Shown piece after piece: positions 2,159 to 48,875 of a stretch of DNA of 50,837 nt. Below the pieces are notes generated by a model that saw only the letters and a list, made by a program, of their open reading frames with translations, had not been told where the DNA came from and did not search any database. The position numbers and the translations under genes were made by a program. Within the stretch, counting starts at the first letter, position 1; each line of letters begins with the position of its first letter. Source of the DNA: Candidatus Rifleibacteriota bacterium (lineage in GTDB: Bacteria; Muiribacteriota; Ozemobacteria; Ozemobacterales; Ozemobacteraceae); contig JAAYVD010000098.1 of the NCBI GenBank assembly GCA_012517355.1, forward strand, positions 1-50,837, in the 5' to 3' direction.

Positions 2159-2349
2159 GAGGCTGCCCCGACCTCGTGCGCGAGCGCAAGACCGCCGCCT
2201 TCGGTTCCTACGGCCGGAGCGGGGGTGGGCGGCCTTGTTCCCGGCGCGACCCTCGTGATACCCTTGTTCAGAGGCGGAGGTGGCGGTGGGCGAGGTCTGG
2301 CGGTGAGGGCAGGCGTGGCCTTGGTCCGGTCGGCCGGGGAGGGGAAGAG

Positions 2350-2429
2350 CCCTTGCCCCGCGCGAAACCGGCCTTCCGTGCGGCCAGCCGTGGGGGCAAG
2401 CAGGAATGTCCGGCATGGTGCCGGCGGCC
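2350..2429 (-). repeat. Family A palindromic element, copy A1 (diverged)
   Basis: Reverse-orientation copy ending about 15 bp before the hydrophobic start of the PilX/GspK-like protein at 2444. The GCGCGAAAC and CCGTGG(G)GGCAA blocks and the terminal hairpin (GTCCGGCATGGTGCCGG) are kept. It is the most diverged of the copies I count as certain. Confidence 0.6.
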
Positions 2430-2443
2430 GCGGCCGCCGCGGA

Positions 2444-6817: not shown

Positions 6818-6822
6818 GGCGG

Positions 6823-18751: not shown

Positions 18752-21359
18752 AACGGTGGCCCGGCTTCTGGCCGTCGGCGCGGTGCTGGTGCTGGTGGCC
18801 TATGCCGACGGGCATCCCCTGGCGGGTTCCCCGGTGCCCGACCGGGCGGACCTGGCCCTGGCCCTCGCCGCCGGTGTCGCCGCCCTCGCCGGCTGCCTGG
18901 TGGCCATGCTGGGGCTGGAGCGGCTGGGCGGCGGCCTTTTCGCCGTTCTGCGGGTGCCGGCGGCCGGCCCCGTGGCGCGGTTGACCGCCGGGCTGGTCTG
19001 GCTGGCGGCGGGCGCGGTGGTTCTGTTGACGGCCGGCATCCTGCGACCCTGGTCGGGGCTGGTGCTCGCCCTGCCCCTGCTGCCCGGCCTCTGGCGGTTG
19101 CCGCGCGAGGAAGGGGAGACGGTGTTGTCCGGGGTCCACTGGTCGTCCTGGGTGGTCCTGCTGGGGTTCGGCGCCCTGGCCGGTGCCTTTGCCCTGGCCC
19201 CCTCGACGGCGCACGACGACCACGTCTACCACCTCCCGGCCATCCGCGAGTTCGTGGAACACGGCTCGCTCTGGCAGCCGTCCCCGCAGCCCAACGTCCA
19301 TCGGCCGCTGGCTCATGCCGCCCTGCTGGCCTGGGTGCGGCTGCTCGGCGGAGAGACCCTGGGCGGACTGGGGAACCTGTTTTTCCTGGTGGCCGCCGGC
19401 CTCCTGCTGGCCCGGAAAAACGGGCTCGCGGGAACGGTCGGCCTGCTGGCCTGGGTTTCGAACCCTCAGCTGGTCTTCCTGGCGGGGACCTCGTATGCCG
19501 AACCCCTCCAGTGCCTGGTGCTCGTCCTGCTCTGCCTGCACCTCGGGCCCCCGCTGGAACCCCCGCCGAAACCCCCGTCGGAACCCCCGTCGGAACCCCC
19601 GTCGGAATCCGTGGGGGGTGAGCCGACCGACACGACGGTGGAAGGGTTTCCCTTGTGCCGCCACGGAGAGCGGCCCGAAACCCCGGTTTCGGGCATCGCA
19701 GAGGGGCCGTTCGCGGCGGCTGGCGGGCAGACCCTCGAGACGGACGGCCCCGGCGCCGTTCCCGCCGGGCTGCCCGCCCGTTCCGCCTCCGGGCCGGGAG
19801 CGGCCGGCCGCCCTCGCGTGGCCTTCTGGTTGGGAGGCCTGCTGGCCGGCCTCCTGCCTGCCACGAAATACTCCGGTCTCTTCCTGCTGCCGGTGACCCT
19901 TCTGCTGGCGTTCTCCCGGTCGGAACAGGACGGCCTCCTTGCACCGCGCGAAACGGGCGATTCGCCCCGCCATCCGTTGCGGCAAGGAGCCCCTTCCGAC
20001 GTCGTGCCGGTCGGCTTCCGCCCCAGGCGGCAAGGGGGTGTGACCGGCATTTTGACAATCGGAGCGTCGCGACGCGACAATCTGGGGGCGTTCCTCATCG
20101 GCGGACTGGTTTCCCTGGCCCTTGTCGCCGCGCCGTTCTACTGGCGGAACCAGGTGATGACCGGCAACCCCCTCTACCCGCACGCTTCTTCCTGGTTTGC
20201 CGGCACGAAGGGCGGGTTCAGCCTGTCCTTCGACGGGCTGGCCACGGGAACCACCGACCTGATCGACTTCTCCTACGAGGGATTCACCGACCGGTTCGGC
20301 ATGGGCCGCGATCCCTGGAACCTGCTGTGGGCGCCGTGGAACGTGATCGTCCATGGACAATTCCACGACGAGCGGTTTCCCCTGCGCTTCTTCGACGGGC
20401 AGTTGAGCCCCTTCGTCCTCGTGTTCTGGCTGCTGCTGCTGGCCTCCTTCCCCCGCCGCCCCGCGGCCGGCCGGGTGGGGGGCGGGGCCGGGGCCGGGGC
20501 CGGGTCGCCGGCCGGGCCCGGATCGACGGTTGGCCCCCTGGCGATGCGCGAAACGGGCGTTTCGCGCCGCCATCCGTCGCGGCATGGGGACACTTCCGAC
20601 GTCGTGTCGGTCGGAATCGGGGGGACGGTCGAGCCACAGGCCAGCGCCGGGCCAGTTGAAGGAGCAGGCAGGCCGGCATCACCGCCCGATTCCCACCCAC
20701 CCATGACGGGCGAAACACCGGGGGAGGGGGGAGGTCCGTCGGTGATCCTCCTGGCCGCCGCCTGGATGCTGGTCAGCTGGCTGGCGGGCAGCCACCAGGT
20801 GCGGTTCCTGCTTCCCCTCGTCGCCTTCGCCGCCTGGGCCGTTCCCTGGCTGCTGCAGTCCCGGCCGTTCCTGCCGATCGCCTTCTGGGTCGTCCTGGGC
20901 CTGCTCGCCAGCCCCTGGACCATCTCCTACGGCCTCGGCCGCATCGTTCGCGTCGCCCCCTTCCTGTCCGGCCACCTCGATCGGGAGGGGTTCCTGGCTT
21001 CCCGACTGCCCTGTCATGCCGGTTTCACCTGGGCCAACCGCCACCTGCCCGGTTCCGGCCGCCTGCTGGTTTTGTTCGAGGAGCGGACCTACCTGCTCCG
21101 GCGGCCCTTCCTCTGGACCGGCCTGATGCCCTATGCGTTCATCAACTTCCTGCATCGGAGCGGGTCGGGGGCCACCGCCGAACGACTGCTCAAGGAGCAG
21201 AAGGTCGGGGCGGTCTTCCTGCCCCGGTTCGGAGGGCGGCTGCTGCAGCAGATCCAGGGCGAGACCTTCCAGCGGGTCCGGCAGGACCTTTTCGATGACC
21301 GGCTGCGGTCGGTCTACGCCGATTCCCAGTGCGAGATCCTGATCTGGAAGGAACCGTGA
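18741..21359 (+). CDS. ArnT/GT39-like membrane glycosyltransferase carrying three in-frame repeat insertions
   Basis: 872 residues with many hydrophobic helices. The motif STAHDDHVYHLPAIREFVEHG (about residues 155-175) corresponds to the first periplasmic loop of GT-C transferases, where an acidic pair binds the lipid-linked donor and metal. YAEPLQCLVLV and TKYSGLFLLPVTLLLAF match later helices. Loops are swollen by three family A copies read in frame (PTDTTVEGFPLCRHGERPET, LLAPRETGDSPRHPLRQGAP, PLAMRETGVSRRHPSRHGDT) and by a 12-bp minisatellite giving PSEPPSEPP. Each insertion falls between hydrophobic segments. The ATG at 18741 follows GGGGGTGGGA and overlaps the previous stop, so the two are likely co-translated. 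Donor and acceptor are unknown; O-antigen, core sugar or pilin modification all fit. Confidence 0.82.
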   Translation: MDRRTVARLLAVGAVLVLVAYADGHPLAGSPVPDRADLALALAAGVAALAGCLVAMLGLERLGGGLFAVLRVPAAGPVARLTAGLVWLAAGAVVLLTAGILRPWSGLVLALPLLPGLWRLPREEGETVLSGVHWSSWVVLLGFGALAGAFALAPSTAHDDHVYHLPAIREFVEHGSLWQPSPQPNVHRPLAHAALLAWVRLLGGETLGGLGNLFFLVAAGLLLARKNGLAGTVGLLAWVSNPQLVFLAGTSYAEPLQCLVLVLLCLHLGPPLEPPPKPPSEPPSEPPSESVGGEPTDTTVEGFPLCRHGERPETPVSGIAEGPFAAAGGQTLETDGPGAVPAGLPARSASGPGAAGRPRVAFWLGGLLAGLLPATKYSGLFLLPVTLLLAFSRSEQDGLLAPRETGDSPRHPLRQGAPSDVVPVGFRPRRQGGVTGILTIGASRRDNLGAFLIGGLVSLALVAAPFYWRNQVMTGNPLYPHASSWFAGTKGGFSLSFDGLATGTTDLIDFSYEGFTDRFGMGRDPWNLLWAPWNVIVHGQFHDERFPLRFFDGQLSPFVLVFWLLLLASFPRRPAAGRVGGGAGAGAGSPAGPGSTVGPLAMRETGVSRRHPSRHGDTSDVVSVGIGGTVEPQASAGPVEGAGRPASPPDSHPPMTGETPGEGGGPSVILLAAAWMLVSWLAGSHQVRFLLPLVAFAAWAVPWLLQSRPFLPIAFWVVLGLLASPWTISYGLGRIVRVAPFLSGHLDREGFLASRLPCHAGFTWANRHLPGSGRLLVLFEERTYLLRRPFLWTGLMPYAFINFLHRSGSGATAERLLKEQKVGAVFLPRFGGRLLQQIQGETFQRVRQDLFDDRLRSVYADSQCEILIWKEP
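19547..19614 (+). repeat. 12-bp minisatellite
   Basis: About five imperfect tandem units of CCCCCGTCGGAA, coding for Pro-Ser-Glu-Pro repeats in a loop of the membrane glycosyltransferase. It directly abuts family A copy A2. Confidence 0.85.
19623..19708 (+). repeat. Family A palindromic element, copy A2 (inside a gene)
   Basis: Forward copy in frame in the membrane glycosyltransferase gene. Its third hairpin has arms GCCCGAAACC and GGTTTCGGGC where other copies have GCGCGAAACG and CGTTTCGCGC. Two base pairs are exchanged on both sides, so pairing is kept. Confidence 0.85.
19932..20014 (-). repeat. Family A palindromic element, copy A3 (inside a gene)
   Basis: Reverse copy, read through in frame by the glycosyltransferase gene. 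GCGCGAAACGGGCG, GCCATCCGTTGCGGC and the terminal CCGACGTCGTGCCGGTCGG are recognisable. Confidence 0.85.
20532..20614 (-). repeat. Family A palindromic element, copy A4 (inside a gene)
   Basis: Reverse copy, third in the same gene, with a perfect 10-bp stem in the large hairpin and CCGACGTCGTGTCGGTCGG at its end. A3 and A4 are more like each other than like A2. Confidence 0.88.
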
Positions 21360-22490: not shown

Positions 22491-22534
22491 AGGAGGGAAA
22501 CGGTTTCCCGGGTGACCTCGCCTTCCCGGCCGGT

Positions 22535-22602
22535 GTCGGCCACACCGCTTTGCCGCCACGGCAGGCGGCGCGAAGTGCCCGTTTCGCGCAGGGCAAGGGG
22601 CC
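22535..22602 (+). repeat. Family A palindromic element, copy A5 (intergenic)
   Basis: Forward copy whose left end is worn. The GCCGCC-ACGGCA-GGCGGC hairpin and the CGTTTCGCGC...CAAGGGGCC right end are intact. Confidence 0.8.
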
Positions 22603-25560: not shown

Positions 25561-25672
25561 CGGAAAGCCTCCCGAACGACTGGTTTGGTGCCCGTCCGCG
25601 CCAGGCCGCCGGCTTGGCGTCCACCCGCGGGCGGGGTGACCCCCTTCCCCGGATGACCGGTGGAAGGGGTCC

Positions 25673-25688
25673 GGGGTAAGCTTACCCC
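25673..25688. promoter_or_regulatory. Perfect 16-bp palindrome in a divergent promoter region
   Basis: GGGGTAAG followed by CTTACCCC, an uninterrupted perfect palindrome, lies between two divergent genes (starts at 25560 and 25792). This is the form and position of a dimeric repressor's operator. No candidate regulator is adjacent. Confidence 0.5.
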
Positions 25689-25747
25689 AGCACCGAGCAT
25701 GATGCACCTCCGAAATATCCGAATGGACCCGCCGGCATTGCGGGGAA

Positions 25748-25833
25748 CCGACCGACACGATGTCGGAAGGGCTTCCCCTTTGCCGCCACGGATGCCGGCG
25801 CGAGAAGCCCGCTTCACGCATCGCCAAGGGGCC
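25748..25833 (+). repeat. Family A palindromic element, copy A6 (supplies a gene start)
   Basis: Forward copy with an intact CCGACACGATGTCGG first hairpin. Its ATG at 25792 is the start codon of the downstream fusion gene, and the element codes for that protein's first 14 residues. Confidence 0.9.
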
Positions 25834-28734
25834 CTCCTGCTCGCGGTCACCTGGCTGGCCGTGGTGAGCATCGCCCTGGGGGGCGCTGCCCCCGCCCGGG
25901 GGGGAGCCTTCCTCCCCGTCTACATCAGCGAATCCCACGCCGGAACCTTTTTCTCCCTGGCCGCGGGTCGCCCGGCAGGGCCGCCCTGCACGCTCGTGCT
26001 GATCGATGCGCACGACGACGCCAACGCCGTCTTCGGTTCCGATGCCCTGCGGCGGGCCAGGCGCGGCTGGCGCGGCCTTGCGGCGCGAAACCGTGGGCTG
26101 GCCGACTGGCGGCGGCGCGGGGTCATCCAGTGCTTCGACTGGATCGAGCCGCTGATGCCCGACCTGGTCGGCCGGGTGCTCTGGGTGCCGGCCGGCCGGC
26201 CGGGTGCCTGGCGGTGCGCCCGGTTGGCCCGGCAGGCGCGGGCCCGGCTCGATGCCTGCGAAGAGGCCGAACCGCGTGGGTGCGGGGAACTGGGTGCGCG
26301 CTGGCGGGTGGCCGGCCTGGCGGGCCTGGCCTCGGACCCCTGGCTGGCGGCTGATGGTGGGCCGGTCGTGGTGTCGGTCGATCTTGACTTCTTCGCCGAT
26401 GTTCCCGCCGCCGAGCTGGCCGAAACCTTCCGGCAGACCTGGGAAACGGTGCTGGCGCTGCCCGGGTTGAGCGCGGTCACGTTCGCCGTCTCGGCCCCGT
26501 GGCAGCCCGACCGGGCCCGCGCCGAGCGGCTGACCGTGCTCGCCGTCGAGGCGGCCACCGCGATCGCCAACGCCCGGGTCGCCCTCGACCTCCTGGCGGA
26601 CTGCGGCCCCGACCGGTCGCGGCGCGGCCGTGACGGGCCAGGGAACCCCCGGCTGGAGCATTCCCTCCAGGACCCTATCGATACCCCGCACGTCGATTCT
26701 GAGGCTGCCTTCGCCCTGACCACGGCCGGACCCGAATTGCGAACGATGCTGTTGCAACGCCGTGGTCGCCTGGCGGTGCCCGCCGCCGACGAGGAACGGT
26801 GGCGCGCCCTCCTCGACGGCTGGGCGGCCCATCCATTCCAGCCCGCGATCCGGGTGGACGCTTGCCAAGCGGCCGGCCACTGGCGGCCCCGACTCGCGGA
26901 CCCGGACGGGCCGGTGCGGGTCCATGCCGACGAGGTCTTCCGTGTCCGGCTGGCCAACCCCGCCGGAGGGACGGTGCGTTGGTTCGCGCAGGTTCCGGCC
27001 GCCGCGGCGTTCAACGTCTTCGGCAACGGGTTCGGGTTCGCTGAGGGGGCCCCCCGCTGGGTCAGGCGCCAGCCGCGGTTGGTGGCCACGGGGAGCGTGC
27101 TCTTCAGCCGCGATCTCGCGCCCGTCCTCGACCCTGAACTCCGCTCCGGGAGTGTGTTTCTCTGGGCGGAGGTCGACCGCGACGGCGAGCGGTGGCGTTC
27201 CGACGAGGTCTGCCTGGCCGTGAGGGTGGCCGGCATGACCGGCTTCCGGGCGGCGCTGAGCGAGCTGTTCGGCCGACCCTATGTGTTCGGGGCGGCCCTG
27301 CTGCGCCAGGATGGCCGCTCCGGTCCTGACCTGGCTACCGGCGCCGATTGCGCCACCTTCCTGATCGATGGCCTGCGCCACGTCGGCTGGCGGGTGCCCT
27401 GGACGGACCCGGCGTGCTTCTCCCGCTTCCTCGAGCCCCTGGCGGTCGGTGGCCTGTCGCGGGCGAGCGGTCACCGGCCGATCCGGTTGTCGCCGGCCGA
27501 CCTCGAGGCGGGCCTGTTCCTGCACCTCGGCCGCCACATGGCCGCGGTCTGGGAAGATCGCCCGCCGGTCGGTTCCCTCGACCCGGGGGACTTGGCAGCA
27601 CATCAGTTGGAGGATCTTCCCCAAATTGTGCCAATCAGTAAACTTGTACAAAATAGGAAGAAGTGGCGACTACTGCGGTGGCCACAGCATGCAGAAACGG
27701 TGCGGCTGGTCTTTGGCGGCGACGTGATGCTCGGCCGCCGGGTGGGGGAAGCCATCGACCGGCGCGGTCTCGACCCGTTCGTCGCGCTGGCTCCCTTCCT
27801 GGCCTCGGCCGACCGGGTGATCGTCAACCTCGAAGCGGTGCCGGCCGCCGTGGGGACCGTTTCCGGGGCTCAGGGGGCAGCGCCCGGGCCGACCGGGCCC
27901 CGGGTCGCCCCGCCGCCCAACCGCCGGCGGGGGCCTGCCGTCTTCGTGGCCACCCCGGCCACGCCCGCCCTGCTGGCGAGAGCCGGCATCGACCTGGTCT
28001 CGCTCGCCAACAACCACGCCGGGGACCTCGGCCCCGGATGCCTCGTTGCCGCCATCGACCGGCTGAACGCGGCCGGGGTCGCCACCTGTGGGGCAGGAGA
28101 GGATCCCTTCTCCCCTGCCTCCTTCGAGGTGCGGGGAACCCGGTTCGCGGTGTTCGGGTTCTCCGACGGGCCCGCCGCCGGTCCCACCGCCGGTCCCACC
28201 GTGGGACCCGGCACTGGTTTGGGCGGCGGGTTCGGCAACGATCTTGCCAAAGGGGTGGCCAACGGTCCGGTCGTCGGCCCCGCCAGCGGGCCTGGCAAGG
28301 GAGTCGCCAACGGTATCGGCGGCGGGGTGACCGCCGGGGACCGACTGGCCGCCCTGACCCGGGCAATGCGGGCGGTGCCGGCCGGCACCGTTGTCATCGT
28401 CTTCGTCCACTGGGGCGACGAGCACCGGGCCGCGGTGTCCGACCGGCAACGGCGGGTGGCCGACGCCCTCCTCGCCGCCGGCGCGCGGGTGATCGTGGGC
28501 AGCGGCCCGCACCTGGTGCAGCCCCTCGCCGACCGCCAGGGCGTGCCGGTCGCCTGGTCGCTCGGCAACCTCGTGTTCGACGGCCCCGGCCCCGACCCTG
28601 CCTGGTCCCGCGGCGCCCTCCTCGAGGTCACGTTCATCCCCGACGGTCGCTGCGTCCGGGCCCGCCACCTGTTCGTGCGGATCGGCGACGACGGCCGGGC
28701 GTTCCCGGAACCCGGCGGCGGCTTCCCGGAGTGA
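25792..28734 (+). CDS. Exported three-part fusion: UPF0489/arginase-like, NlpC/P60-like and CapA/PgsA-like domains
   Basis: 980 residues. The N-terminus MPAREARFTHRQGA is encoded by repeat copy A6 and serves as the basic n-region of a signal peptide whose hydrophobic core is LLLAVTWLAVVSIALGG. Domain 1 (about residues 40-270) has LVLIDAHDDANAVFG and VVVSVDLDFFADV, the two acidic motifs of UPF0489/ureohydrolase-like metal enzymes. Domain 2 (about 480-600) has GADCATFLIDGLRHVGWRVP, like the catalytic Cys region of NlpC/P60 peptidases. Domain 3 (about 640-970) has LVFGGDVMLGRRVGE, NLEAV, SLANNHAGD, VHWGDE and GSGPHLVQPL, the metallophosphatase-like motifs of CapA/PgsA proteins. Domain 3 holds a ~50-residue Gly/Pro/Val-rich insert. 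Cell-wall or capsule peptide processing is plausible. No clear ribosome binding site precedes the ATG. Confidence 0.75.
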   Translation: MPAREARFTHRQGALLLAVTWLAVVSIALGGAAPARGGAFLPVYISESHAGTFFSLAAGRPAGPPCTLVLIDAHDDANAVFGSDALRRARRGWRGLAARNRGLADWRRRGVIQCFDWIEPLMPDLVGRVLWVPAGRPGAWRCARLARQARARLDACEEAEPRGCGELGARWRVAGLAGLASDPWLAADGGPVVVSVDLDFFADVPAAELAETFRQTWETVLALPGLSAVTFAVSAPWQPDRARAERLTVLAVEAATAIANARVALDLLADCGPDRSRRGRDGPGNPRLEHSLQDPIDTPHVDSEAAFALTTAGPELRTMLLQRRGRLAVPAADEERWRALLDGWAAHPFQPAIRVDACQAAGHWRPRLADPDGPVRVHADEVFRVRLANPAGGTVRWFAQVPAAAAFNVFGNGFGFAEGAPRWVRRQPRLVATGSVLFSRDLAPVLDPELRSGSVFLWAEVDRDGERWRSDEVCLAVRVAGMTGFRAALSELFGRPYVFGAALLRQDGRSGPDLATGADCATFLIDGLRHVGWRVPWTDPACFSRFLEPLAVGGLSRASGHRPIRLSPADLEAGLFLHLGRHMAAVWEDRPPVGSLDPGDLAAHQLEDLPQIVPISKLVQNRKKWRLLRWPQHAETVRLVFGGDVMLGRRVGEAIDRRGLDPFVALAPFLASADRVIVNLEAVPAAVGTVSGAQGAAPGPTGPRVAPPPNRRRGPAVFVATPATPALLARAGIDLVSLANNHAGDLGPGCLVAAIDRLNAAGVATCGAGEDPFSPASFEVRGTRFAVFGFSDGPAAGPTAGPTVGPGTGLGGGFGNDLAKGVANGPVVGPASGPGKGVANGIGGGVTAGDRLAALTRAMRAVPAGTVVIVFVHWGDEHRAAVSDRQRRVADALLAAGARVIVGSGPHLVQPLADRQGVPVAWSLGNLVFDGPGPDPAWSRGALLEVTFIPDGRCVRARHLFVRIGDDGRAFPEPGGGFPE

Positions 28735-29097
28735 CAGGCGGGGTCCCCCCTGGTAAGATCGTGGTGAGTTCGCCGGCAGGAGGTCCGTGTCAGGCATGAT
28801 GGTGGTCGTGGGTTCTTCGGATTCTCCGCGTTCCTGCCCGACCGGGTCGAGGGGAGGTCCTTCGAGCACGTGGCGGGGAAATGGCTCCCCCAGCCGGATC
28901 AGAACTTCCCCAGCCCATCCCAGCCCCCCGACCCGTCCCGGTGATCACCCCCAAGGATCCCTTCCCCCGAGAATTCCCGCAAGGTTTCCTCCGGCCTGTC
29001 GGTCTGCCGCCGATGGCGGCAGCCTGTTCCGTCGCACCGGTTGACAGCGGGCCTCCCCAGAACCTCCCGGTTTCCCACCGGTGAAAGGACCGACCCG
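28735..29097 (+). other. Intergenic region, 363 bp
   Basis: Between the fusion gene and the MltA-like gene. A TTGACA at 29040-29045 has no matching -10. A short open frame (28787-29044) is rich in Ser/Pro/Arg and has no support. I see no repeats here. Confidence 0.4.
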
Positions 29098-30261
29098 ATG
29101 AACGTTCGATCTTGTTTCCCTCTCCTGGTGGCCGGGCTGGCCTTCCTGTCGGCCGGCCTTCCTGCCGGCGCGCAGACCGGACGGGGCTACGACTTCGCCG
29201 GCGACGGCAAGCGGGCCGGCACCGTCCAGGCCGAGGCCTGGGTGGCCGAATCGGCGGTGGTTCGCGCGACGCTGTCGTCACCCGCCGACCTTGTCCTTCC
29301 CGTGCGCTCCGCGGCGGCGAAGCAGGCTGCCCGCGCCAATCTCGAGGTGGCCGACCGCCTGGCCGCGAAGAAGACCGTGAAGGTCGGGAACCTCGAGGTC
29401 GGCGGCGCCGACCTCGCCCGCACCGCCCGTGCGGTTGCCGCCTGGCTGGCCTCCGGCCGCCCGGGCGGGGCGTTTCCCTTCCGCCTCTACCGTTCGCAGG
29501 GTGAGGACGGCCAGGGCAACGTGCAGTTCACCGGCTATTTCACCCCCCGCCTGGAGGTGGCCGCCGCCCCCGACGCCCGATTCCGGTTCCCGCTGTACCG
29601 CTTTCCGGCAGGGTTTCCCAAGCCCCTGCCTTCACGCCAGGAGATCGATGAGGGGAAGGCCCTGGCCAGCCGCAGTCTCGAGATCGCCTGGGCCGACGAC
29701 CTGCTCGAGGTCTACTTCCTGCAGGTGCAGGGCTCGGGCCGCCTCCATTTCCAGGACGGACGCGAGAAGTGGATCGCCTTCGCCGGCTCCAACGGCATTC
29801 CCTACCAGAGCCTCGGCCGGATGCTGGTCGAGCGCGGCAGCATCCCCGCCGACCGCATCAGCCTGCGGGCCATCCGCGCCTGGATGCACGCCCACCCCGA
29901 GGACCTCGCTCTGCTGAACCGCAATCCCTCCTACGTGTTCTTCAAGGAGGCGAAAAGTGCCCCGGTCGGGGCCGCCGGCATCCCGGTGATCCCGGGAGCG
30001 TCGGTGGCGGCCGACCAGCGCTACATCCCGCCCGGGGCCTGCCTGTTGGCCGAGGTGCCGCTCCTCGATCCCACCGGGGCCCTGCTCGGCCACGAGTGGC
30101 GCCTGCTGTTCGCCCACGACACCGGCGGCGCCATCAAGGGGCCCGGCCACCTCGACCTCTACTTCGGCCTGGGCCCCGCCGCCGGCGAGCGCGCCGGCGA
30201 CCTGCACCACTACGGCCGGATCTGGCTCGTCCTCGCGGGGAAGCCACCGGCCCGGAAATGA
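29098..30261 (+). CDS. mltA: MltA-type membrane-bound lytic murein transglycosylase
   Basis: 387 residues. Cleaves the MurNAc-GlcNAc bond of peptidoglycan in the periplasm, forming 1,6-anhydro ends. A signal peptide (MNVRSCFPLLVAGLAFLSAG ... AGAQ) is present. It ends in GAQ rather than a lipobox Cys, so unlike E. coli MltA it is probably soluble. The MltA domain shows TGYFTPRLEVAAAPD, then EIAWADDLLEVYFLQVQGSG and AFAGSNGIPYQSLGRMLVER. The C-terminal 3D domain has FAHDTGGAIKGPGHLDLYFG, where the Asp of DTGGAI is the expected catalytic acid. ATG 29098 is preceded by a weak GAAAGGA. It is one of the few genes here with a clear housekeeping role and supports a diderm cell. Confidence 0.92.
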   Translation: MNVRSCFPLLVAGLAFLSAGLPAGAQTGRGYDFAGDGKRAGTVQAEAWVAESAVVRATLSSPADLVLPVRSAAAKQAARANLEVADRLAAKKTVKVGNLEVGGADLARTARAVAAWLASGRPGGAFPFRLYRSQGEDGQGNVQFTGYFTPRLEVAAAPDARFRFPLYRFPAGFPKPLPSRQEIDEGKALASRSLEIAWADDLLEVYFLQVQGSGRLHFQDGREKWIAFAGSNGIPYQSLGRMLVERGSIPADRISLRAIRAWMHAHPEDLALLNRNPSYVFFKEAKSAPVGAAGIPVIPGASVAADQRYIPPGACLLAEVPLLDPTGALLGHEWRLLFAHDTGGAIKGPGHLDLYFGLGPAAGERAGDLHHYGRIWLVLAGKPPARK

Positions 30262-30541
30262 TGCCCGCCGGCGGCGGGGAGCCTCGCCATGCCCGGGGAA
30301 GCCGGGCCCGACCGACCGGATGTCCAAAGCGCTCGCTGGCCGCCAAGGGCGGCGGGCCGGGCAGGGGTGGTGCCCTGCGACAGGATCGCTCGCGCTCAAT
30401 GGGAATGGAAAGGCCTGACGGGAAAGAGCCCCAAGACCTTGCCCCTGCGAGAGAAGTGGCACCCGCCCCATGTTTCCCCGCCTTGCCGGCGGCCGGCCGA
30501 TGATCTACACTCGGAGGAAGGATTTTTCGCGGAGGAGCGGG

Positions 30542-31465
30542 ATGGGTCATTCGCGGCGATCCCGGCGCTGGCCGGGGTTTTGGGGGTTCGCCCTGGCGGC
30601 GCTCCTGGCCTGGCCTTTCGCCGCACCCGGCGCCGGCACCGACCTGCCAACCGACCTGCCGGCCGCGCTCAACGTCCTGCTCAACGTCCCCCAGCGCCTG
30701 GAGAGCGTCGGTGCGGCGCTCGAGGCCTTCTTCGCCCTTTCCCCCGCCGACCTGCGCGGCGGCAGCCCACCTCCCCAGCCCGCCGACGAGAGCACCCTCC
30801 TGCAGGCCCCGGTCGTGTTGACCGGCAAGGATCTGCCGCCCCACTGCGCCGAGGCCATCTTCGATTTCCGCCTGTCCGCCCGCAAGGACTTCCAGACCTA
30901 CGCGGGGGCGGCCGACGGCTGGCTGGACCGCGGCCAGTTCAACCGGCTCGTCGCCGACGGCCGCCTGCCGGTCAAGACCGACCCCGACGCCTACTTCGCC
31001 GCCCACGACATCGACGGCGACGGCCGGCTCACCATCGGCGAATTCTCGCCGACCGCCACCGAGGTCGCCCGCTCCCAGGACGTCGCCGCCATCACCACCG
31101 CCTTCCTGACCAACCGGCCCTATCCCACCGGTGCCCGCCCGGTCTCCTCCCCCCGACAGGTGCCGGGCGTTGGCACCGGCCCCGCTCCCGGTCCGGGACC
31201 GCCTCCCGGCGGCCCCGGCCTCCCCGGCGATCCCGACCTGGATGCCATCGCCGGCACCTATTGGGACAAGGACGACGAGTTCGACCGCCTCTCCCGCGAG
31301 TTCGGGCCCCGCTACCCGGGCCTGCGGCCGGTGGCCATGGACCTGCGCGCCCTGGCGCAACGCTACGTCGATACGGCCGAGGCGAAGTTCCCCGGCGATC
31401 CCGAGATCGGCCGCTGGCGCTCCGAGGTCCGCTACTGGTCCGACGTCCTGTTCGGCCTGCCGTAG
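30542..31465 (+). CDS. Exported protein with an EF-hand calcium-binding loop
   Basis: 307 residues with a signal peptide (SRRWPGFWGFALAALLAWPF, cleavage near GAGT). Around residue 160 the sequence AHDIDGDGRLTIGEFSP is a canonical 12-residue EF loop (Asp1, Asp3, Asp5, Glu12). Only one loop is clear, so it may pair with another degenerate one or be dockerin-like. A Gly/Pro-rich linker separates it from a helical C-terminal domain (DDEFDRLSREFGPRYPGLRP). ATG 30542 follows GGAGGAGCGGG; the frame is open back to 30470. It lies 220 bp before the second PilX/GspK-like gene and parallels the position of secreted genes in locus 1. Calcium binding is known to matter for type II secretion tips; a link here is inference. 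Confidence 0.72.
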   Translation: MGHSRRSRRWPGFWGFALAALLAWPFAAPGAGTDLPTDLPAALNVLLNVPQRLESVGAALEAFFALSPADLRGGSPPPQPADESTLLQAPVVLTGKDLPPHCAEAIFDFRLSARKDFQTYAGAADGWLDRGQFNRLVADGRLPVKTDPDAYFAAHDIDGDGRLTIGEFSPTATEVARSQDVAAITTAFLTNRPYPTGARPVSSPRQVPGVGTGPAPGPGPPPGGPGLPGDPDLDAIAGTYWDKDDEFDRLSREFGPRYPGLRPVAMDLRALAQRYVDTAEAKFPGDPEIGRWRSEVRYWSDVLFGLP

Positions 31466-31488
31466 CCGGTGACGCCCCGCCAACCGCC

Positions 31489-31574
31489 CCGACCGGCACG
31501 ATGTCGGGAGGGATTCCCCTTTGCCACCACGGATGGCGATGCGGAACGCCTGTTTCGCGCACCGCACAGGGGCC
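31489..31574 (+). repeat. Family A palindromic element, copy A7 (tandem with A8)
   Basis: Forward copy. In its third hairpin two A-T or G-C pairs have become G-T, so the stem would still form in RNA. The next copy begins two bases before its end. Confidence 0.88.
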
Positions 31575-31658
31575 GACCGGCACGATGTCGGAAGGACTTC
31601 CCCCTGGCCGCCACCGATGGCGGCGCGAAACGCCCGTTTGGCGCGCCGCCAGGGGGCC
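31573..31658 (+). repeat. Family A palindromic element, copy A8 (tandem with A7)
   Basis: Forward copy, 84 bp after A7, ending about 26 bp before the hydrophobic segment of the PilX/GspK-like protein. Its GCCGCC-ACCGAT-GGCGGC hairpin is perfect. Confidence 0.88.
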
Positions 31659-31684
31659 CCCCGCCCGCCCGCCGCGGCGGGATC

Positions 31685-33718
31685 ATGATCTTCATCGTGA
31701 TCTCCGTCCTGGTCATCCTCGCCTTTCTGGGAACCACCCTCTACCGGAGCCTGCGGGAACGGGCGCACTTCGTCAGCGCCCACGTCATGACCAGCCTGCT
31801 GGACTTCGCCGCCATGGAGATGGCGGCCGTCATCTACGAGGACATCGGTCGGGAGATGGCGAGCGGTCCGGCCAGTGAGCTGTTCAAGGACGTCGTCGCC
31901 GCTCCGGTCACCGGGTTCCAGCCGATCGCGGTCACCGGCCGCGACGCGCGGTGGCTGGCGGCCTGCACCTTCCCTTCCCGGCCCGAATATGCCGGCTTCG
32001 GGTCGGCCGTCACCCTGACTTTCACTGACGCCGAGCCCCTGGCGGCCACCGCCACCTGGCGAGATCCGCGCGAAAAGCTGTGCGCGCTCGATCTGACCCT
32101 CGACCTGTCGCTGGGCCGGGCCCAGGTCACCCGGCGGGTGCGGCGGGTCTACCGGTACCGGAAACTGTGCAAGGTCGTGGCCTTCCACCTGCCCGTGGTC
32201 TCGCGGTTCACCCTCTTCCTGCGCGAGCCGCCGGCGACCGACGAGAAGGCCGAGGGGCTCAACTGCTTCCAGAACTCGATCGACGGGCGGGCCCTGCAGA
32301 CCACGAAGGTCCAGCCCCTGACCCTGTTCAACGCCGACCGCCCGGGGCAGTTCGACTTGTACAAATCGGGTCACATCTATCTGGGCGGGTCGCGCGAGAT
32401 CCAGCTGCACGCCACCTCGGGCGGCGATTCCCAGTACGGCGAACTCTTCCAGTTCTACAATGCCGGCACCCCGAGCCCCAATCCCCCGGTCTTCCTGGTC
32501 GAGAACCCGCCCGCCACCCGCGCCTTTTCCGGACAGTTCCCCATCAGCACCCACCCGCCGCTGTTCGGCAAGCTGCTCCTGCTCGGCACCTGGTTCGGGT
32601 TCTACCTGCTCGACAACGGCAACCCGGCCCAGGACATGAACTACAACAACACCCTCGAGCGGTATCTCGCCGGCACCGCCTGCCGCACCATGAAGTCCTC
32701 CTTCCTGCACCTGTTCGGAACCCTGGGCTATCCTACCCCCGCGCTGGTGGTGGGGAAGGTCAGGCGCGTATTCGCCCAGTACACCGCCCTGTGTTTCGAC
32801 ACCGACGGCGACAACAGTTCCGACGGGGTGCTGGCCAACCTGCGGTCGCCCGCCGCCCAGCAGACCTCCGGCGGCGCCGCTCCGACCTTCTGGGAGACGC
32901 TGAAACTCCCCGTCCGGATGGGGAAGAACCGCAAGACGGGCGAGGCCCTGAAGTTTCTCGAACTCGACATGCAGGGCGTGTTCGAAACCCGGCCGACCTA
33001 CCTCGACCATGCCAGCCGCCTGCTCATCGAGCCGGTCAACCGGGTCTACGACTACCTGTCCGACGATTCACGCAAATACCCGCCGAAGGAGCTGTTCAAG
33101 CCGAAATACGGCGAGTATGAACAGGACGGGGCCGCCTTCCGGATCACCCGGCAGACCGGCGACCGGCCGGTGCTGTTCGATGGCGATCTCGGAAAGGTCG
33201 ATTCGTCCGCCCTGGTGACCGACCGCCCGACGCTGGTGCTCGACAACGGCGACCAATTCCGCGACCGGTTCCTCGCCGGTCGCGATCTCGATCTGAAGGG
33301 CGGGTTCGTCTTCGTGCAGAAGGGGCCCCTCGAGGTGCCCGCCGGGACCACCGTCGTCAATCCCGGTCTCGTCGCGGTCCGCGGCGACATCCGGGTGCTG
33401 GGCGACATCAAGGACGGGGCACCCAAGCCCCAGGTGTCGCTCGTCTCGCTCGGCGGCGACGTCGTCCTCGACGGCACCAACCAGGAGGTGTTCGCCCACC
33501 TGGTCGCCCTCGACGGCACGGTGCGGCCAGCCAAGACCAACAACCGCGTGAAGATCCGGGGCGCCCTCGCCGTCAAGACCCTGGACCCCCTGGCCTGGGC
33601 CGCCGGCGGCGAGCTCACCTACGAGAGCCGCTTCGACCCGTCGCTCAGCGAAGAGGGCAGCTACGCCGTCCACTTCGCCGATTTCTACGACCGGTGGGAG
33701 GTCTCCCCGGGAAACTGA
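31685..33718 (+). CDS. PilX/GspK-like pseudopilus-associated exoprotein, locus 2
   Basis: About 677 residues, paralogous to the product of 2444-4669. The hydrophobic N-terminus (IMIFIVISVLVILAFLGTTL) follows PARRGG, again the basic-Gly-hydrophobic pattern of prepilin-type leaders. The rest is extracytoplasmic. Shared landmarks include VVSRFTLFLREPP, LHLFGTLGYPTPALVVG, RPVLFDGDLGKVDSSALV and the C-terminal beta-helix-like run GLVAVRGDIRVLGDIKDG with VSLVSLGGDVVLDG. If the leader includes RRGG, ATG 31685 is too late. The only other in-frame start is GTG 31469, right after the previous stop, which would make the tandem repeats A7/A8 encode a 70-residue leader. Confidence 0.7.
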   Translation: MIFIVISVLVILAFLGTTLYRSLRERAHFVSAHVMTSLLDFAAMEMAAVIYEDIGREMASGPASELFKDVVAAPVTGFQPIAVTGRDARWLAACTFPSRPEYAGFGSAVTLTFTDAEPLAATATWRDPREKLCALDLTLDLSLGRAQVTRRVRRVYRYRKLCKVVAFHLPVVSRFTLFLREPPATDEKAEGLNCFQNSIDGRALQTTKVQPLTLFNADRPGQFDLYKSGHIYLGGSREIQLHATSGGDSQYGELFQFYNAGTPSPNPPVFLVENPPATRAFSGQFPISTHPPLFGKLLLLGTWFGFYLLDNGNPAQDMNYNNTLERYLAGTACRTMKSSFLHLFGTLGYPTPALVVGKVRRVFAQYTALCFDTDGDNSSDGVLANLRSPAAQQTSGGAAPTFWETLKLPVRMGKNRKTGEALKFLELDMQGVFETRPTYLDHASRLLIEPVNRVYDYLSDDSRKYPPKELFKPKYGEYEQDGAAFRITRQTGDRPVLFDGDLGKVDSSALVTDRPTLVLDNGDQFRDRFLAGRDLDLKGGFVFVQKGPLEVPAGTTVVNPGLVAVRGDIRVLGDIKDGAPKPQVSLVSLGGDVVLDGTNQEVFAHLVALDGTVRPAKTNNRVKIRGALAVKTLDPLAWAAGGELTYESRFDPSLSEEGSYAVHFADFYDRWEVSPGN

Positions 33719-33998
33719 GAGAGCGGGGTTCCTTCATTCTCCGCCCAGCCACACCCGGAACCCGGTCTGGACGATCCCCCTCCTGAAAGCGGAAAGGGGG
33801 GGCAGGCAAAGCCGTTTCGCGGATCCCGTGGGCGTCCGCGCCGCCCTGTCCGAAGCCCACCGGATACTTGCTCGCAGCCCACCCCCGGTTCCCGTTGTCG
33901 GGCCTTGGGGATTCGTCTGGTCATTTCCCTCATCTGGATCGAACAGGTCCAGGAACCATTCCCAGCAACTTCCGGCCAGTCCGGTGTGGAAACTCCCG
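33719..33998. other. Convergent intergenic region of locus 2
   Basis: Lies between the converging plus and minus halves. Around 33780-33850 a stretch with CCGTTTCGCGG and GCGCCGCC faintly resembles family A but cannot be aligned with confidence. No terminator stands out. Confidence 0.35.
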
Positions 33999-35393
33999 TC
34001 AGGGAGCCTGGTCGAAGACCTCTCCCGGCGCGGGAAGGGTCGCGGAGCCGGTCACCGGCCCGGAAACAGGGTCCTCCGGCTGGCCGTCGGTGGCCGTGAC
34101 GGCTGGCGGCTGTGCCGGCGAAGCGGTGGCGGGTGGCCAGGAGGTGCCGGAGAGACCGACGGTTGCGTGGGAGGAGGGGGTTGCCGCCGCGTCGGCTGGC
34201 GCCGGGGAGCCGGGGGAAACGACACTCCCGGGAAGGGTGGCTGGTGCAGTGTTCGCCGCGGTGGCGGGGTCCGCGTTCAGGGCGGGGGGGGCGTGGTCCG
34301 CAGGGAGGATGGTCGGACTGGCCGTCTCGGGGGCAACCACCGTTTCCGAAGCGCGGGTCGGAAGGAGCGTGGCGGGTGCCGCGGCCGCGGGAGCGGCCAG
34401 CGCGGCGGCCTCCAGGCCGGCCAACCACCCGCCCAGGGCGGAAATGGCCTTCCCACCCGTCGGGGGAGGGGCGGCCACGATCCCGGGCGGCAGCGCCTGT
34501 GGGGGACGAACCCTTCCCGCCAGACCCCACTCCTGCTGCTTCAGGAGAATGGTGCCGGCGGCCCCCCGGAGGGAAAGGCCCCCGGCCTCCCCGTGGGCGA
34601 GGGTGTGGTCGGCGGCAACCCAGAGGGTGAACCCGGCGCGGTCGGGGGTGGTGACGGTTGCGGTGGGGGTTTCGACGCGCCAGCCGGGCGCGCCCGCGTC
34701 GATGGCCACCCGCAGGACCCCGGCGGCCAGCCGGACGACGCCGTTGCCCGCGAACGCGAGCCGGGAACCGGGGTCGACCTGGACCCGGCCGCCGGTGGGG
34801 GTCTCGACCGTGGCCGGTTCCAGGATCAGGTATTCCGCGTCGACGGTGAGCGGCTCGCCTGGCTTGACCAGCGCCTGGCCGGCCGTCAGGCGGGCGGCCC
34901 CCTGAGCCAGGACCGGCAACCCGTCCGTGCCGCCCGGGCGCGGCCCGGGCCCGGGAGGCAGTCTTCCCCGCCCCAGGAGCAGGATTCCGGCGACGAGCAG
35001 CAGGGAAAAGGCGAGGGCGGGACCCCGCCATCCGGAAAGGATGGACTCGAAGAGGTTCTCCCAGGGTGACGGTTGGCCGGGCCCGGCGGCCAGGGTGGGC
35101 GGTTCCGGCACCCGTGCCGGTCGGCGGGAAGGTCCGGCAGGGCCGGTGGCCGGCCGGGTGGCAGGGCGTGTCGCGGCGGTTTCGGCGGGGGCGGCGGCCG
35201 GGGCCGGGGCCGCGTCGGGGTCGAAATGGGCGTAGAACTCCCGCATCCGGAGGAGGCCGGCGTTGAGCTTTTCCCATTCGGCGCGGCAGGCGGGGCAGCC
35301 CTTGAGGTGGGCGGAGAGTTCGGCCCCTTCCTGGGGTGGAAGATCGCCGGAGGCGAGGTCGGCCAGGCGGGCCAGGACGCTGGGGCAATCCAT
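33999..35393 (-). CDS. Membrane anti-sigma factor with zinc finger and FecR-like domain
   Basis: 464 residues. The N-terminus has LSAHLKGCPACRAEWEKLNA, the HxxxCxxC zinc-binding anti-sigma motif (zf-HC2), in the cytoplasm. A Pro/Ala-rich linker leads to one membrane helix (GPALAFSLLLVAGILLLGRG, about residues 125-145). Outside is a FecR-like beta domain: ARLTAGQALVKPGEPLTVDA, then GGRVQVDPGSRLAFAGNGVV. The last ~150 residues are Ala/Pro/Thr-rich and probably unstructured. The ATG at the complement of 35391-35393 follows GAGGAGG. Its natural partner is the ECF sigma factor at 37780-38436, separated by three genes. Confidence 0.85.
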   Translation of the reverse strand: MDCPSVLARLADLASGDLPPQEGAELSAHLKGCPACRAEWEKLNAGLLRMREFYAHFDPDAAPAPAAAPAETAATRPATRPATGPAGPSRRPARVPEPPTLAAGPGQPSPWENLFESILSGWRGPALAFSLLLVAGILLLGRGRLPPGPGPRPGGTDGLPVLAQGAARLTAGQALVKPGEPLTVDAEYLILEPATVETPTGGRVQVDPGSRLAFAGNGVVRLAAGVLRVAIDAGAPGWRVETPTATVTTPDRAGFTLWVAADHTLAHGEAGGLSLRGAAGTILLKQQEWGLAGRVRPPQALPPGIVAAPPPTGGKAISALGGWLAGLEAAALAAPAAAAPATLLPTRASETVVAPETASPTILPADHAPPALNADPATAANTAPATLPGSVVSPGSPAPADAAATPSSHATVGLSGTSWPPATASPAQPPAVTATDGQPEDPVSGPVTGSATLPAPGEVFDQAP

Positions 35394-35485
35394 GGAAACT
35401 CCTCCTCTGGTCATCCGGGATCCGGGGCCGTGGAAACGGTGCGGCCCACCGCCCCCGGGCGGAGCGGTGGGCCGGTCAGCTTTGC

Positions 35486-36085
35486 CTACTCGGTGTCTGA
35501 GGCGACGTCAGCGGTCTCCGAGGCGACGGTTGCCGTATCCGAAGCCACCGCTGCGGTGTCGGAACCCACCGGGAACGGGCGTCCCCAGCCGAACGGGCCG
35601 GGGCCCCAGGGCCGTCCCCAGCCGCCGAAGGGCCGACCCCACCCGAAGAAGGGGGCCCGCCAGCCGCCGAAGGGCCCGCGCCAGCCGAAGGGGCCGGGGC
35701 CGCCCCAGAAGTGGAACCACGGGGGCATGAAGCGCCAGGGGTTGGGGGGCATGAACCGGGAGGAGACCTGCAGGAACATGCCGATCAGGATGCGGACGAT
35801 CGGGTCGCTGATGTCGATGGTGGTCGAGCCGACGGTCACCGAACTGCTGGCCGTTTCAGTGTCGCTGGCCACGGTGGCGGCGTCGGGGATCTCCTCCTCA
35901 TCCTCCTCGTCCTCGACGGCGACCGTCGCGGTGGTGCTGGCGGTGTCGGTGGCCAGCGTGGCGGTGTCGGAGGCCTCTTCCAGGACGTCGCCGGGGCTGG
36001 TGACCTCGGCGAAGGCGGCGGGCCCGGCCAGGACCAGGGCGAACAGGACCGTCAGAGCCATCGAAAACATCCGAAGCTGGTTCAT
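35486..36085 (-). CDS. Exported SDTA-repeat and Gly/Trp/Phe/Pro-rich protein
   Basis: 199 residues. Signal peptide MNQLRMFSMALTVLFALVLA ... AFAE. The mature protein has two Ser/Asp/Thr/Ala repeat tracts, EEASDTATLATDTASTTATV near the start and SDTAAVASDTATVASETADV at the end, built on an ~7-residue SDTATVA unit. Between them are an acidic run (EDEEDEEE), a hydrophobic patch (IVRILIGMFLQV) and a Gly/Trp/Phe/Pro/Arg tract repeating FGWGRPFGGWGRP. No family is recognised. The composition suggests a structural or surface protein. It lies 92 bp before the anti-sigma gene on the same strand, with its own AGGAGG. Repeats are visible at both DNA and protein level. Confidence 0.7.
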   Translation of the reverse strand: MNQLRMFSMALTVLFALVLAGPAAFAEVTSPGDVLEEASDTATLATDTASTTATVAVEDEEDEEEIPDAATVASDTETASSSVTVGSTTIDISDPIVRILIGMFLQVSSRFMPPNPWRFMPPWFHFWGGPGPFGWRGPFGGWRAPFFGWGRPFGGWGRPWGPGPFGWGRPFPVGSDTAAVASDTATVASETADVASDTE

Positions 36086-36422
36086 GGTCTTCCTCCTGTC
36101 GTGCATCTCGCGTTTTTTCACGGGTCACTGATGATGACGCAGGATTTTTCCTGTTGTGACAAAAAAAAGCCATGCTCCGCAAAAAGGCTTGCAAAGAGGC
36201 TTTGCCCCTTCCCCCCCCTTTTTTCCATTTCCCCGCCGCCCTCGAGGTTTCTGTCGAAATGCGGAAGTCTCCATCGATTCTGCCGCCGCCGATCGGGCCG
36301 GCGGCTCCCCACGCCCTTCCGCAGCCCTCTTCAAGGGTTCCGTCGAAAGGCAAAAGTCCCGGAACGATGTCCGACCGCCTACCCGTCATGCCCGGGCCGG
36401 GTCAGGCCGTTGTCCGGCCGGC
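36086..36422 (-). other. Intergenic region with homopolymer runs, 337 bp
   Basis: Unusually AT-containing for this window. It has A8 (around 36161), C9 and T6 runs (36210-36225) and a small CAGGA-TTTT-TCCTG hairpin (36141-36154). It could contain the terminator of the pseudopilin pair and the promoter of the SDTA-repeat gene, but I cannot place hexamers with confidence. Confidence 0.4.
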
Positions 36423-37019
36423 TCAGGAGCCGGGAATGCCCTTGTGGAACCAGGTTCTGCCCAGCCAGCGGTTGACGAAATGCGGGGAGATGATCGTCTG
36501 GAAATCGATCGCCGCGCTCTTGTCGCGGGCCTGGGCCATGTTGAAGGTCCGCACCTTGACCGGGAACTGGATCGAGTCGGGGATCGTGGCCCCGGCCGTG
36601 GCGAAGCGGGCCTCCACCTGGATGTCGAACTCCTGGCACCGGCTCCGGGCCAGCGAATTGGTGCGCACCCCGTCCTCGATGCGGCTCAGGTTCCCCGTGG
36701 CGGCATCGAACGCGTAGATCACGGCGATCTGGCGGTCCCATTTCCGGCGGGTGATGCGGAACCCCTCGGGGATGGCCTCGACGATCTTCGCCCAGTGGCC
36801 CAGGTCCCGCCCCGGGATGTCGGCCAGGCTCAGGTCCTCGCGCAGGAGGGTGACGATCTGCCAGCATTCGGTCACGCTTTCCGTGCGGTCGTCGACCTTG
36901 AGGTAGGACCGGAAGGAATGCTCGAAGAAGAAATACAGCACGCTGGCCACCACGACGAAGATGGTCATCACCACCAGGATCTCGACCAGGGAGAACCCGA
37001 CCGGCACGAGGTCGGCCAT
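36423..37019 (-). CDS. Pseudopilin, GspJ-like, locus 2 (leader from repeat A9)
   Basis: 198 residues. The leader MADLVPVG is followed by FSLVEILVVMTIFVVVASVL: cleavage after Gly, Phe +1, Glu +5. The soluble domain contains RRKWDRQIAVIYAFDAATGN, comparable to the strand pairs in the locus 1 GspJ-like protein, and ends with WLGRTWFHKGIPGS. The ATG at the complement of 37017-37019, the AAGGG before it and all leader residues lie within palindromic copy A9 (36997-37079). The Gly before the cleavage site is encoded by the element's outermost bases. It follows the other pseudopilin gene by 110 bp. Confidence 0.88.
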   Translation of the reverse strand: MADLVPVGFSLVEILVVMTIFVVVASVLYFFFEHSFRSYLKVDDRTESVTECWQIVTLLREDLSLADIPGRDLGHWAKIVEAIPEGFRITRRKWDRQIAVIYAFDAATGNLSRIEDGVRTNSLARSRCQEFDIQVEARFATAGATIPDSIQFPVKVRTFNMAQARDKSAAIDFQTIISPHFVNRWLGRTWFHKGIPGS

Positions 37020-37079
37020 ATCCCTTGGCCGGCACGGATGGCGGCGCGAAACGCGAGTTTCGCGCACCGCCAAGGGGCC
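36997..37079 (+). repeat. Family A palindromic element, copy A9 (supplies a prepilin leader)
   Basis: Forward on the plus strand, so the minus-strand gene reads it backwards. The large hairpin has a 9-bp perfect stem (GCGCGAAAC / GTTTCGCGC). Its left end forms the leader of the pseudopilin. Confidence 0.9.
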
Positions 37080-37129
37080 GTCCCTTCCCGGACCGGGGCT
37101 TGGGCGCGGGGACCGGCTCGGCAGGAGCA

Positions 37130-37756
37130 TCAGCGACCTCCCTGGTGGGTGACGAAGGTGAAACTCAGCTCGAGGTCGGCCCGGGGCTGGTCGAGGACGA
37201 TGACCCCGAGCCGGATCACCTTGCCGGGACGGTCGGGCAGGTCGCTGACCCGAAGGGTCCGGAAATACCCATCGGGGAGTGGGGAAAGGTCGATGCGGGT
37301 GTGGGGGTTGCCGGTGACGAGCGTGACGGGGCCGCTGCGGATACCGGTCAGGTCGTAATCGTCGGCGGGGATCTCGGCCACCGCCAGGCTCTGGAGCTGG
37401 GTGGCCATCTCGCTGATGGCGGAATGGACCACGGCCCGGGCATACAGCACCTTGGAATTCTCGATGGTGAACGAGAACATGTGCATGATGGGCAGAACCG
37501 TGGTGAGGAAGCAGGCGATCGCGATGAGGATCTCGATCAGGCCCATCCCGTGCCGGTCCGCGTCCGGCCGGGAGGCCGCGGGTGGCCGCCGGCCCGGCGG
37601 TTTTCCGCAGGGAACCCCGACGGTGGCCAGGCGTCTGACCGCCGCCCGGCAAGGTCTTCCCACGCCCCGGGTGACGGGCAGGGCGGTCTGGGCCCGGTGG
37701 CGGTCCGCCGCCTGGGCGGATGCTTCCCGCGCCTCCCGACGACTGGCTGTGGCCAT
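37130..37756 (-). CDS. Pseudopilin, GspI-like, locus 2 (start uncertain)
   Basis: The core is DRHG followed by MGLIEILIAIACFLTTVLPI: Met at +1, Glu at +5 and a hydrophobic helix, then FTIENSKVLYARAVVHSAIS, comparable to GspI/PilV proteins. Because Met +1 belongs to the mature protein, translation must begin upstream. The first in-frame ATG is at the complement of 37754-37756, 23 bp after the sigma factor stop, giving a ~70-residue basic leader. The alternative is that ATG 37546 is used and the protein is not cleaved in the normal way. About 208 residues in the long form and 138 in the short one. Probably co-transcribed with the sigma factor. Confidence 0.75.
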   Translation of the reverse strand: MATASRREAREASAQAADRHRAQTALPVTRGVGRPCRAAVRRLATVGVPCGKPPGRRPPAASRPDADRHGMGLIEILIAIACFLTTVLPIMHMFSFTIENSKVLYARAVVHSAISEMATQLQSLAVAEIPADDYDLTGIRSGPVTLVTGNPHTRIDLSPLPDGYFRTLRVSDLPDRPGKVIRLGVIVLDQPRADLELSFTFVTHQGGR

Positions 37757-38436: not shown

Positions 38437-38827
38437 GCCTGGAGAGTGTGGGGGGGAGACGGACAGGGGGCCTCCCCTCTCAGACCAGGGTACCGCATCG
38501 GATGCTATCGACCGGATCTTACCACATTCCCATCCCGTCCGGACAGGGGCCGCCACCTCACTCCAGGGCGAATGCCAACAGTGGGATCGCGGTCAGAGCG
38601 GGAGGAGCTTTGCTCCTCCAGACCACCTCGCCAGGGGCCACAGGCCCCTGGACCAACTTGTCTGCCTGCCGAACGCTCCTCGCTGGGCAGGCGGGCCGCC
38701 CTATCCGTGCGTCTCTGCTGACGATGCGGGTTTCAGTCTTGCGTTTGCCCGATACCCCGCCCGGAGCGGTCCGGACCCGTTCCGGCCCTGCCGATCGGGA
38801 GGCGGGCGGGAAGGGACCGTGCCGGGC
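38437..38827 (-). other. Intergenic region between prfC and the sigma gene, 391 bp
   Basis: Must contain the sigma factor promoter and the prfC terminator. The central third is repeat B3. I cannot assign a -35/-10 pair for an ECF promoter. Confidence 0.4.
38592..38696 (+). repeat. Family B hairpin repeat, copy B3
   Basis: Shares GGTCAGAGCGGGAGGAGC...GCTCCTCC, GACCACCTCGCCAGGGGCC and GGCCCCTGGACC with the other copies. It ends in a CTGCCTGCCGAACG...GGGCAGGCGGG hairpin of its own. Confidence 0.7.
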
Positions 38828-40485: not shown

Positions 40486-40694
40486 GGAAAATGGTGCCAC
40501 CATACCATTTTCGTGGTCGCTCAAGGTGTCCCGGTTTTTTCCTGGCTTGGGAAGCGGGTTCCCAGGGATTTTCCACCGTTGCCCGTTGACCATGGACGTC
40601 GGCCGTCCCCCCCCCCTTTCAGGGCGGCTGGGAGCGGTGGAAAAAGAGGGACACCTTGCGAAGCCCGGAAAAGAGTATGGTGGCACCATTTTCC
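40486..40694. repeat. 209-bp inverted repeat between prfC and lysA
   Basis: Perfect 20-bp outer arms, GGAAAATGGTGCCACCATAC (40486-40505) and its complement (40675-40694). Then a 17-bp diverged step on each side and perfect inner 10-bp arms, AAGGTGTCCC (40523-40532) and GGGACACCTT (40648-40657). The arms are thus colinear over 47 bp. The loop is about 115 bp and includes a C9 run. It could be a MITE-like element or paired operator sites serving the two divergent genes. Confidence 0.75.
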
Positions 40695-47418: not shown

Positions 47419-47504
47419 ATGACCACCACGATGTCCGAAGGGCTTCCCCCTTGCCGCCACGGATGGCGGCGCGATACGATCCGTTCGCGCCTTGCCAGGG
47501 GGCC
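47419..47504 (+). repeat. Family A palindromic element, copy A10 (intergenic)
   Basis: Forward copy ending 34 bp before the AraC-type gene. The large hairpin keeps a perfect GGCGCGA / TCGCGCC outer stem although its inner part has changed. Confidence 0.85.
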
Positions 47505-48683: not shown

Positions 48684-48770
48684 GGACCCTTTGCGTTCCG
48701 CGAAACTCGCGGTACGTGCCGCCAACCGTGGCGACACAGGGGGAGGCCTTTCGACGTCGTGCCGGCCGCC
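48684..48770 (-). repeat. Family A palindromic element, copy A11
   Basis: Reverse copy directly after the end of a third, partial copy. Diverged in the large hairpin, but GCCGCCAACCGTGGCGACA and CGACGTCGTGCCGG are clear. Confidence 0.75.
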
Positions 48771-48793: not shown

Positions 48794-48875
48794 GTCCCCC
48801 TTTCGGTGCGCGAAACGGGCGTTTCGCTCTGCCCTCCGTGGCGGCAAAAGGGCCCTGCCGACCTCGTGCGGTCGG
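48794..48875 (-). repeat. Family A palindromic element, copy A12
   Basis: Reverse copy. Its end hairpin is CCGACC-TCGTGC-GGTCGG, where both arms differ from the usual CCGACA...TGTCGG yet pair perfectly. Confidence 0.88.

Follow-up and report, generated by a model that had tools for sequence, protein, structure and literature searches.

Family A, a palindromic element dispersed through the genome studied here, very probably extends export leaders that its host genes already possessed: as a stop-free palindrome it would be tolerated where the n-region of a leader can stretch, and it would donate neither start codons nor leaders. The unit, 81 or 84 nt long and mostly stop-free in six frames, would spread within the genus and at times land in genes, an insertion persisting only where 27-28 added residues are harmless; such places would lie mostly between genes and, within them, chiefly over the opening dozen codons of exported proteins. 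Translated there, a copy would add a spacer, basic in most cases, that separates the native start from the hydrophobic core of a signal peptide or prepilin, a region where added length is tolerated. In-frame copies would persist in leaders because the n-region has room for 27-28 more residues and is in most cases removed during export, and the element would extend leaders rather than donate them because it entered genes that already had their native start and h-region. The question was raised by the window (the whole 50,837-nt stretch analysed), on which an earlier note had proposed the element as a source of new or replacement start codons and export leaders. The sequence facts behind that proposal are correct, in that copies lie over or right beside the N-termini of the genes at 25792, 37019, 2444 and 31685, and its "four of 12 copies" at exported N-termini holds as four loci, although five copies are involved. 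The position of the element at N-termini, its enrichment there and its basic peptides also stand; the creation or replacement of starts and leaders is not supported, given the native starts upstream and the leaders of orthologues.

A profile search recovered 12 copies of family A from the window and 246 (E<=1e-4) from a 2.05 Mb sample of the 7.1 Mb host genome, a density that is possibly raised, the sample being made up of long contigs picked among contigs with element matches; the reversed sample, used as a control, gave zero matches. Aligned copy lengths peak at 80 and 83 nt, and because tandem copies are most commonly spaced 81 or 84 nt apart, the unit corresponds to 27 or 28 codons. RNAalifold across all 178 copies returned no structure, for which reason the fold was tested on the consensus instead, where three hairpins are predicted. 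Compensatory changes number 87, while shuffles average 51 and reach 69 at most; with so modest an excess, and with half of the 87 falling in one pair, selection acting on the structure is weakly supported. All six frames are stop-free in 125 of 178 near-complete copies as against 52 of 178 dinucleotide shuffles, an openness that may be inherited from a founder copy rather than selected. The element can be translated in either orientation, in several frames and as tandem arrays; the + orientation holds an ATG in the basic frame MAARNARFAHRKGA, and the frames found at the N-termini of exported proteins give mostly basic peptides. Family A copies appear, from sequence, to be translated, and the element is presumably spreading as selfish DNA. 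Rfam covariance models gave zero matches to the window at gathering score, and among 37 genomes of relatives clear copies, more diverged, occur besides the host only in one genome of the same genus. Other repeats in the window include another palindromic family (GGAGGAGCTTTGCTCCTCC...CCAGGGGCCNNNGGCCCCTGG; 6817-7174, 38564-38654 and 44293-44363) unrelated to family A, an AT-rich 54 nt inverted repeat with arms 101 nt apart upstream of the RF3 (prfC) gene (40486-40694) and, at the contig's very end (50710-50837), a 34 nt direct repeat in two identical copies 94 nt apart, possibly an assembly-end effect.

Most copies lie outside genes: 129 of 185 loci are intergenic, and in-gene loci make up 30% although 86% of the sample is coding. 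The 5' enrichment of family A in exported proteins is real, and the genome-wide excess that the earlier note had asked for was found. Among the 56 in-gene loci outside the window, 15 fall at codons 2-14, and codons 15-42 hold none; the first 40 codons, where 9.75% of in-gene loci are expected, hold an excess (p=2e-4) whose size is approximate, since genes were called with a home-made codon-usage caller and starts corrected upstream only. The last 40 codons show no excess among the same 56 loci. Twelve of the 15 N-terminal loci pass the hydrophobicity threshold, two more (C124:116766 and C34:176504) have a signal peptide by eye, and the clear non-exported exception is MutY. Such an enrichment, together with the tandem in-frame arrays, might be taken to mean that the inserts are adaptive, a basic and expandable n-region being selected for altering export. 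However, the units are read in either orientation and in several frames that differ in composition (a variety that also argues against one adopted peptide), copies are found in MutY and directly after signal-peptide cleavage regions (C124:116726, C34:78081), and same-genus orthologues manage without units. Adaptive inserts are thus quite unlikely, and tolerance rather than benefit would lie behind the enrichment. A broader claim, that a coding-compatible repeat, its length divisible by three and all six of its frames kept readable, has by spreading through export leaders made translated, tandemly expandable n-regions a genus-specific feature with consequences for export, has an outside chance of being right.

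At the prepilin-like gene the earlier note had credited the element with an AAGGG, the ATG and the leader at 37019. The ATG at 37019 lies inside a copy and reads MADLVPVG-FSLVEILVV, starting MADLVPVGFSLVEILVV, with no Shine-Dalgarno (SD) sequence in range. Upstream of it no stop interrupts the frame across the element and on to ATG 37130, whose A is shared with the stop of the upstream gene. The protein read from ATG 37130 runs MLLPSRSPRPSPGPGRD, then the element residues, then GFSLVEILV. Homologue leaders directly precede the GFxxxE-type motif (for example MKLNR-AFSLVE), and in a host paralogue the leader ends PAGPGRQ-GYTMIE. Because the upstream start has its SD and TGATG overlap, 37019 has no SD and homologues have leaders of this kind, the element would here be an in-frame insertion interrupting an existing prepilin leader; start donation at 37019 was ruled out on the upstream SD, the stop overlap and the homologues. 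The prepilin genes stand between an ECF sigma factor and a weak anti-sigma-like match, both encoded on their strand (-; 33999-35393 and 37780-38286), and the prepilin cluster may have its own sigma/anti-sigma pair.

At all four of the window genes named above the open frame extends upstream of the element (Table 1). The tandem pair in the 31685 gene ends 27 nt before ATG 31685, where the gene begins with a hydrophobic segment; its two units lie in frame between GTG 31469 and PPPARRGGIMIFIVISVLV, and homologues have similar leader ends without units (GRSGSMMLIVM, GRRGSMMLVVV). In the 2444 gene, which also begins with a hydrophobic segment, the copy ends 20 nt before ATG 2444, the basic GRGRRG before MAFSIILC sits downstream of the element, and MTTARRSPALSLGAAGGRRGMALSVI is the sequence in the same-genus orthologue, which is 73% identical. 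ATG 25792, inside a + copy, reads MPAREARFTHRQGA-LLLAVTWLAV, starting MPAREARFTHRQGALLLAVTWLAV; none of the three upstream in-frame ATGs has an SD, a search of 40 genomes gave no orthologue of the N-terminal part, and the true start may lie upstream of the element or, if donated by it, at 25792.

Table 1. Family A copies and associated genes in the window, followed by units in leaders elsewhere in the sampled genome.
Feature	Position	Strand	Basis or remark
Family A copy (A9 of the earlier note), in frame in prepilin leader	36998..37079	+	profile match; frame open through copy
Prepilin-like gene, corrected start ATG 37130	36423..37130	-	N_methyl PF07963, TIGR02532; GGAGG 6 nt before start; TGATG overlap
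Family A copy over called start 25792 of PGA_cap-domain protein	25749..25833	+	profile match
PGA_cap protein open frame	25660..28734	+	candidate ATGs 25699, 25702, 25723 (upstream of element), 25792 (inside)
Two tandem family A copies, 84 nt spacing, in frame before h-region of 31685 gene	31490..31658	+
PilX/GspK-like gene, probable start GTG 31469 directly after upstream stop (31463-31465)	31469..33718	+	homologues with native leaders
Family A copy, leader region of 2444 gene	2350..2424	-	profile match
PilX/GspK-like gene; candidate native start GTG 2303 (SD GAGGT, 6 nt), called start 2444	2303..4669	+	same-genus orthologue leader
Family A copy in frame inside gene 18729-21359	19624..19708	+
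Family A copy in frame inside gene 18729-21359	19932..20013	-
Family A copy in frame inside gene 18729-21359	20532..20613	-
Intergenic family A copy	22531..22600	+	profile match
Family A copy upstream of AraC-type gene (own start 47539 with SD)	47421..47504	+
Intergenic family A copy	48684..48767	-	profile match
Intergenic family A copy	48796..48872	-	profile match
Unit in leader	C34:100446		MSRTERP-[unit]-RRGLTFVELL
Unit in leader	C10:97669		MTMPADQR-[unit]-HHRPAFSLVEV
Unit in leader	C127:155748		MRNERRA-[unit]-GHRAFTLVEI
Two units in leader	C153:19729
Three units in leader	C153:45768
Three units in leader	C34:106105
Three detected units and one degenerate in leader	C48:17965

MutY and a TAXI-type protein directly demonstrate, through their orthologues, insertion downstream of a native start. 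In the host MutY a first unit follows MPSLT and a second separates LPWR from DPYAILVSE; the two same-genus orthologues begin at the equivalent Met, carry no insert and have an uninterrupted LPWRETRDPY. For the TAXI-type protein, the GTG start of the host and the ATG starts of the two same-genus orthologues coincide at the end of the upstream gene; the tandem units are present in the host only, and the starts lie upstream of them. In mutY (C153:33046-34155), a DNA repair gene, LPWR and DPY are conserved motifs, and the second unit stands between them.

In 48 genes of the sample the called start coincides with an element or follows closely on one; in 31 of these genes it has no SD. A native start (in frame, at most 75 nt upstream of the element, and either with an SD or overlapping the preceding stop) lies upstream of the element in 11 of these 31 genes, compared with 27 of 723 controls, which are element-free genes given a pseudo-element of matched length (OR 14, p=5e-8); three of the 11 are the window genes that raised the question and eight are independent. 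Ten of the 11 are exported-like, against a baseline of 47% (p=0.004). These results bear on the model that the element itself provides ATG and basic n-region, which can point to called starts on the in-element ATG of the basic frame in several genes and to 25792, where no better start is proven. Yet a start or signal peptide elsewhere explains eight of the 11 called starts inside an element (25792 is among the remaining three), none of the 11 positively supports donation, and in-element ATGs have no SD in range. Native starts precede the element at 37130, in MutY and the TAXI protein, and in a further eight or more sampled genes, and element-free orthologues have native leaders, the very finding that the earlier note had named as refuting its model. 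Donation of starts and leaders is therefore highly improbable. The two readings predict different products: peptides MLLPSRSPRPSPGPGR and MTMPADQR if the element was inserted into existing leaders, and proteins starting MADLVPV or MPAREAR if it donated them. A caution follows for annotation, as starts are easily mis-called inside repeats, which makes repeats resemble leader donors.

Least probable is that the 5'-end copies are regulatory RNA hairpins in untranslated leaders with translation starting downstream: the intergenic majority of copies would suit it, as would the 17 of 48 element-proximal genes with an SD at the start downstream of the element, where the copy is probably untranslated, and a similar case has been argued for many 5' REPs (PMC3733652), but at C10:97669, C34:100446 and C127:155748 the downstream start has no SD and its use would lose the prepilin motif or n-region, and internal in-frame copies, such as that in MutY, cannot be untranslated.

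No target-site duplication, the mark of a MITE, was found at 64 solitary family A copies, whose borders show only a CC bias, and no transposase for family A was found. The genome has one Y1_Tnp gene, the nearest family A copy is about 6.6 kb away, and a RAYT was rejected as mobiliser of family A, this gene being flanked by a different palindrome. That RAYT-like gene (L338, C109, about 4003-4999) has its flanking palindrome around GTTCCGGGGACATGATACCGAA, pieces of which occur elsewhere in the sample as a second repeat family.

The tolerated insertion of family A into leaders has its closest likeness in the RPEs, 105-146 bp palindromic repeats of Rickettsia (Ogata et al., 2000; PMC2229807, PMC10969869), which some proteins carry at the NH2 terminus (PMC3733652). 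Both are small stop-free palindromes, intergenic as well as in frame in unrelated genes, and tolerated there; in-frame insertion is seen here at the 56 in-gene loci and in MutY and TAXI, whose orthologues have no inserts. Family A differs in that it is GC-rich, belongs to an unrelated genus, is read in several frames and either orientation, forms tandem translated arrays and is concentrated in export leaders. Judged on the published length of RPEs, it is not filed as one, its 81/84 nt unit being below the stated range. REPs of the GTAG/CGTC types are likewise palindromes found inside ORFs, with an NH2-terminal excess and with copies in DNA repair genes (here MutY), and neutrality has been argued for those inserted in linkers or at termini (PMC3733652). 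They are, however, 20-40 bp single hairpins with a tag, as against three predicted hairpins in 81/84 nt, and GTAG types flank a RAYT gene (PMC3733652), whereas family A copies do not flank the Y1_Tnp gene. Many NH2-terminal REPs were also judged extragenic (PMC3733652), while upstream native starts and orthologues argue for a place inside the gene in family A. The RU-1, RU-2 and RU-3 repeats of Yersinia and enterobacteria are small open-frame repeats fused to ORFs and were proposed to build new leaders or proteins (PMC2759123); family A would only lengthen leaders whose native start and h-region were already there. The best reading is that family A is a genus-restricted family of its own, RPE-like in its working. 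In-frame palindromic insertions have so far come mainly from Rickettsia, and the same process would operate here in an unrelated lineage with hundreds of copies, the n-region of export leaders being a site where proteins tolerate them. What is new beside these systems is the scale, the tandem in-frame units, the use of several frames and the precedence of the leader over the element in several genes.
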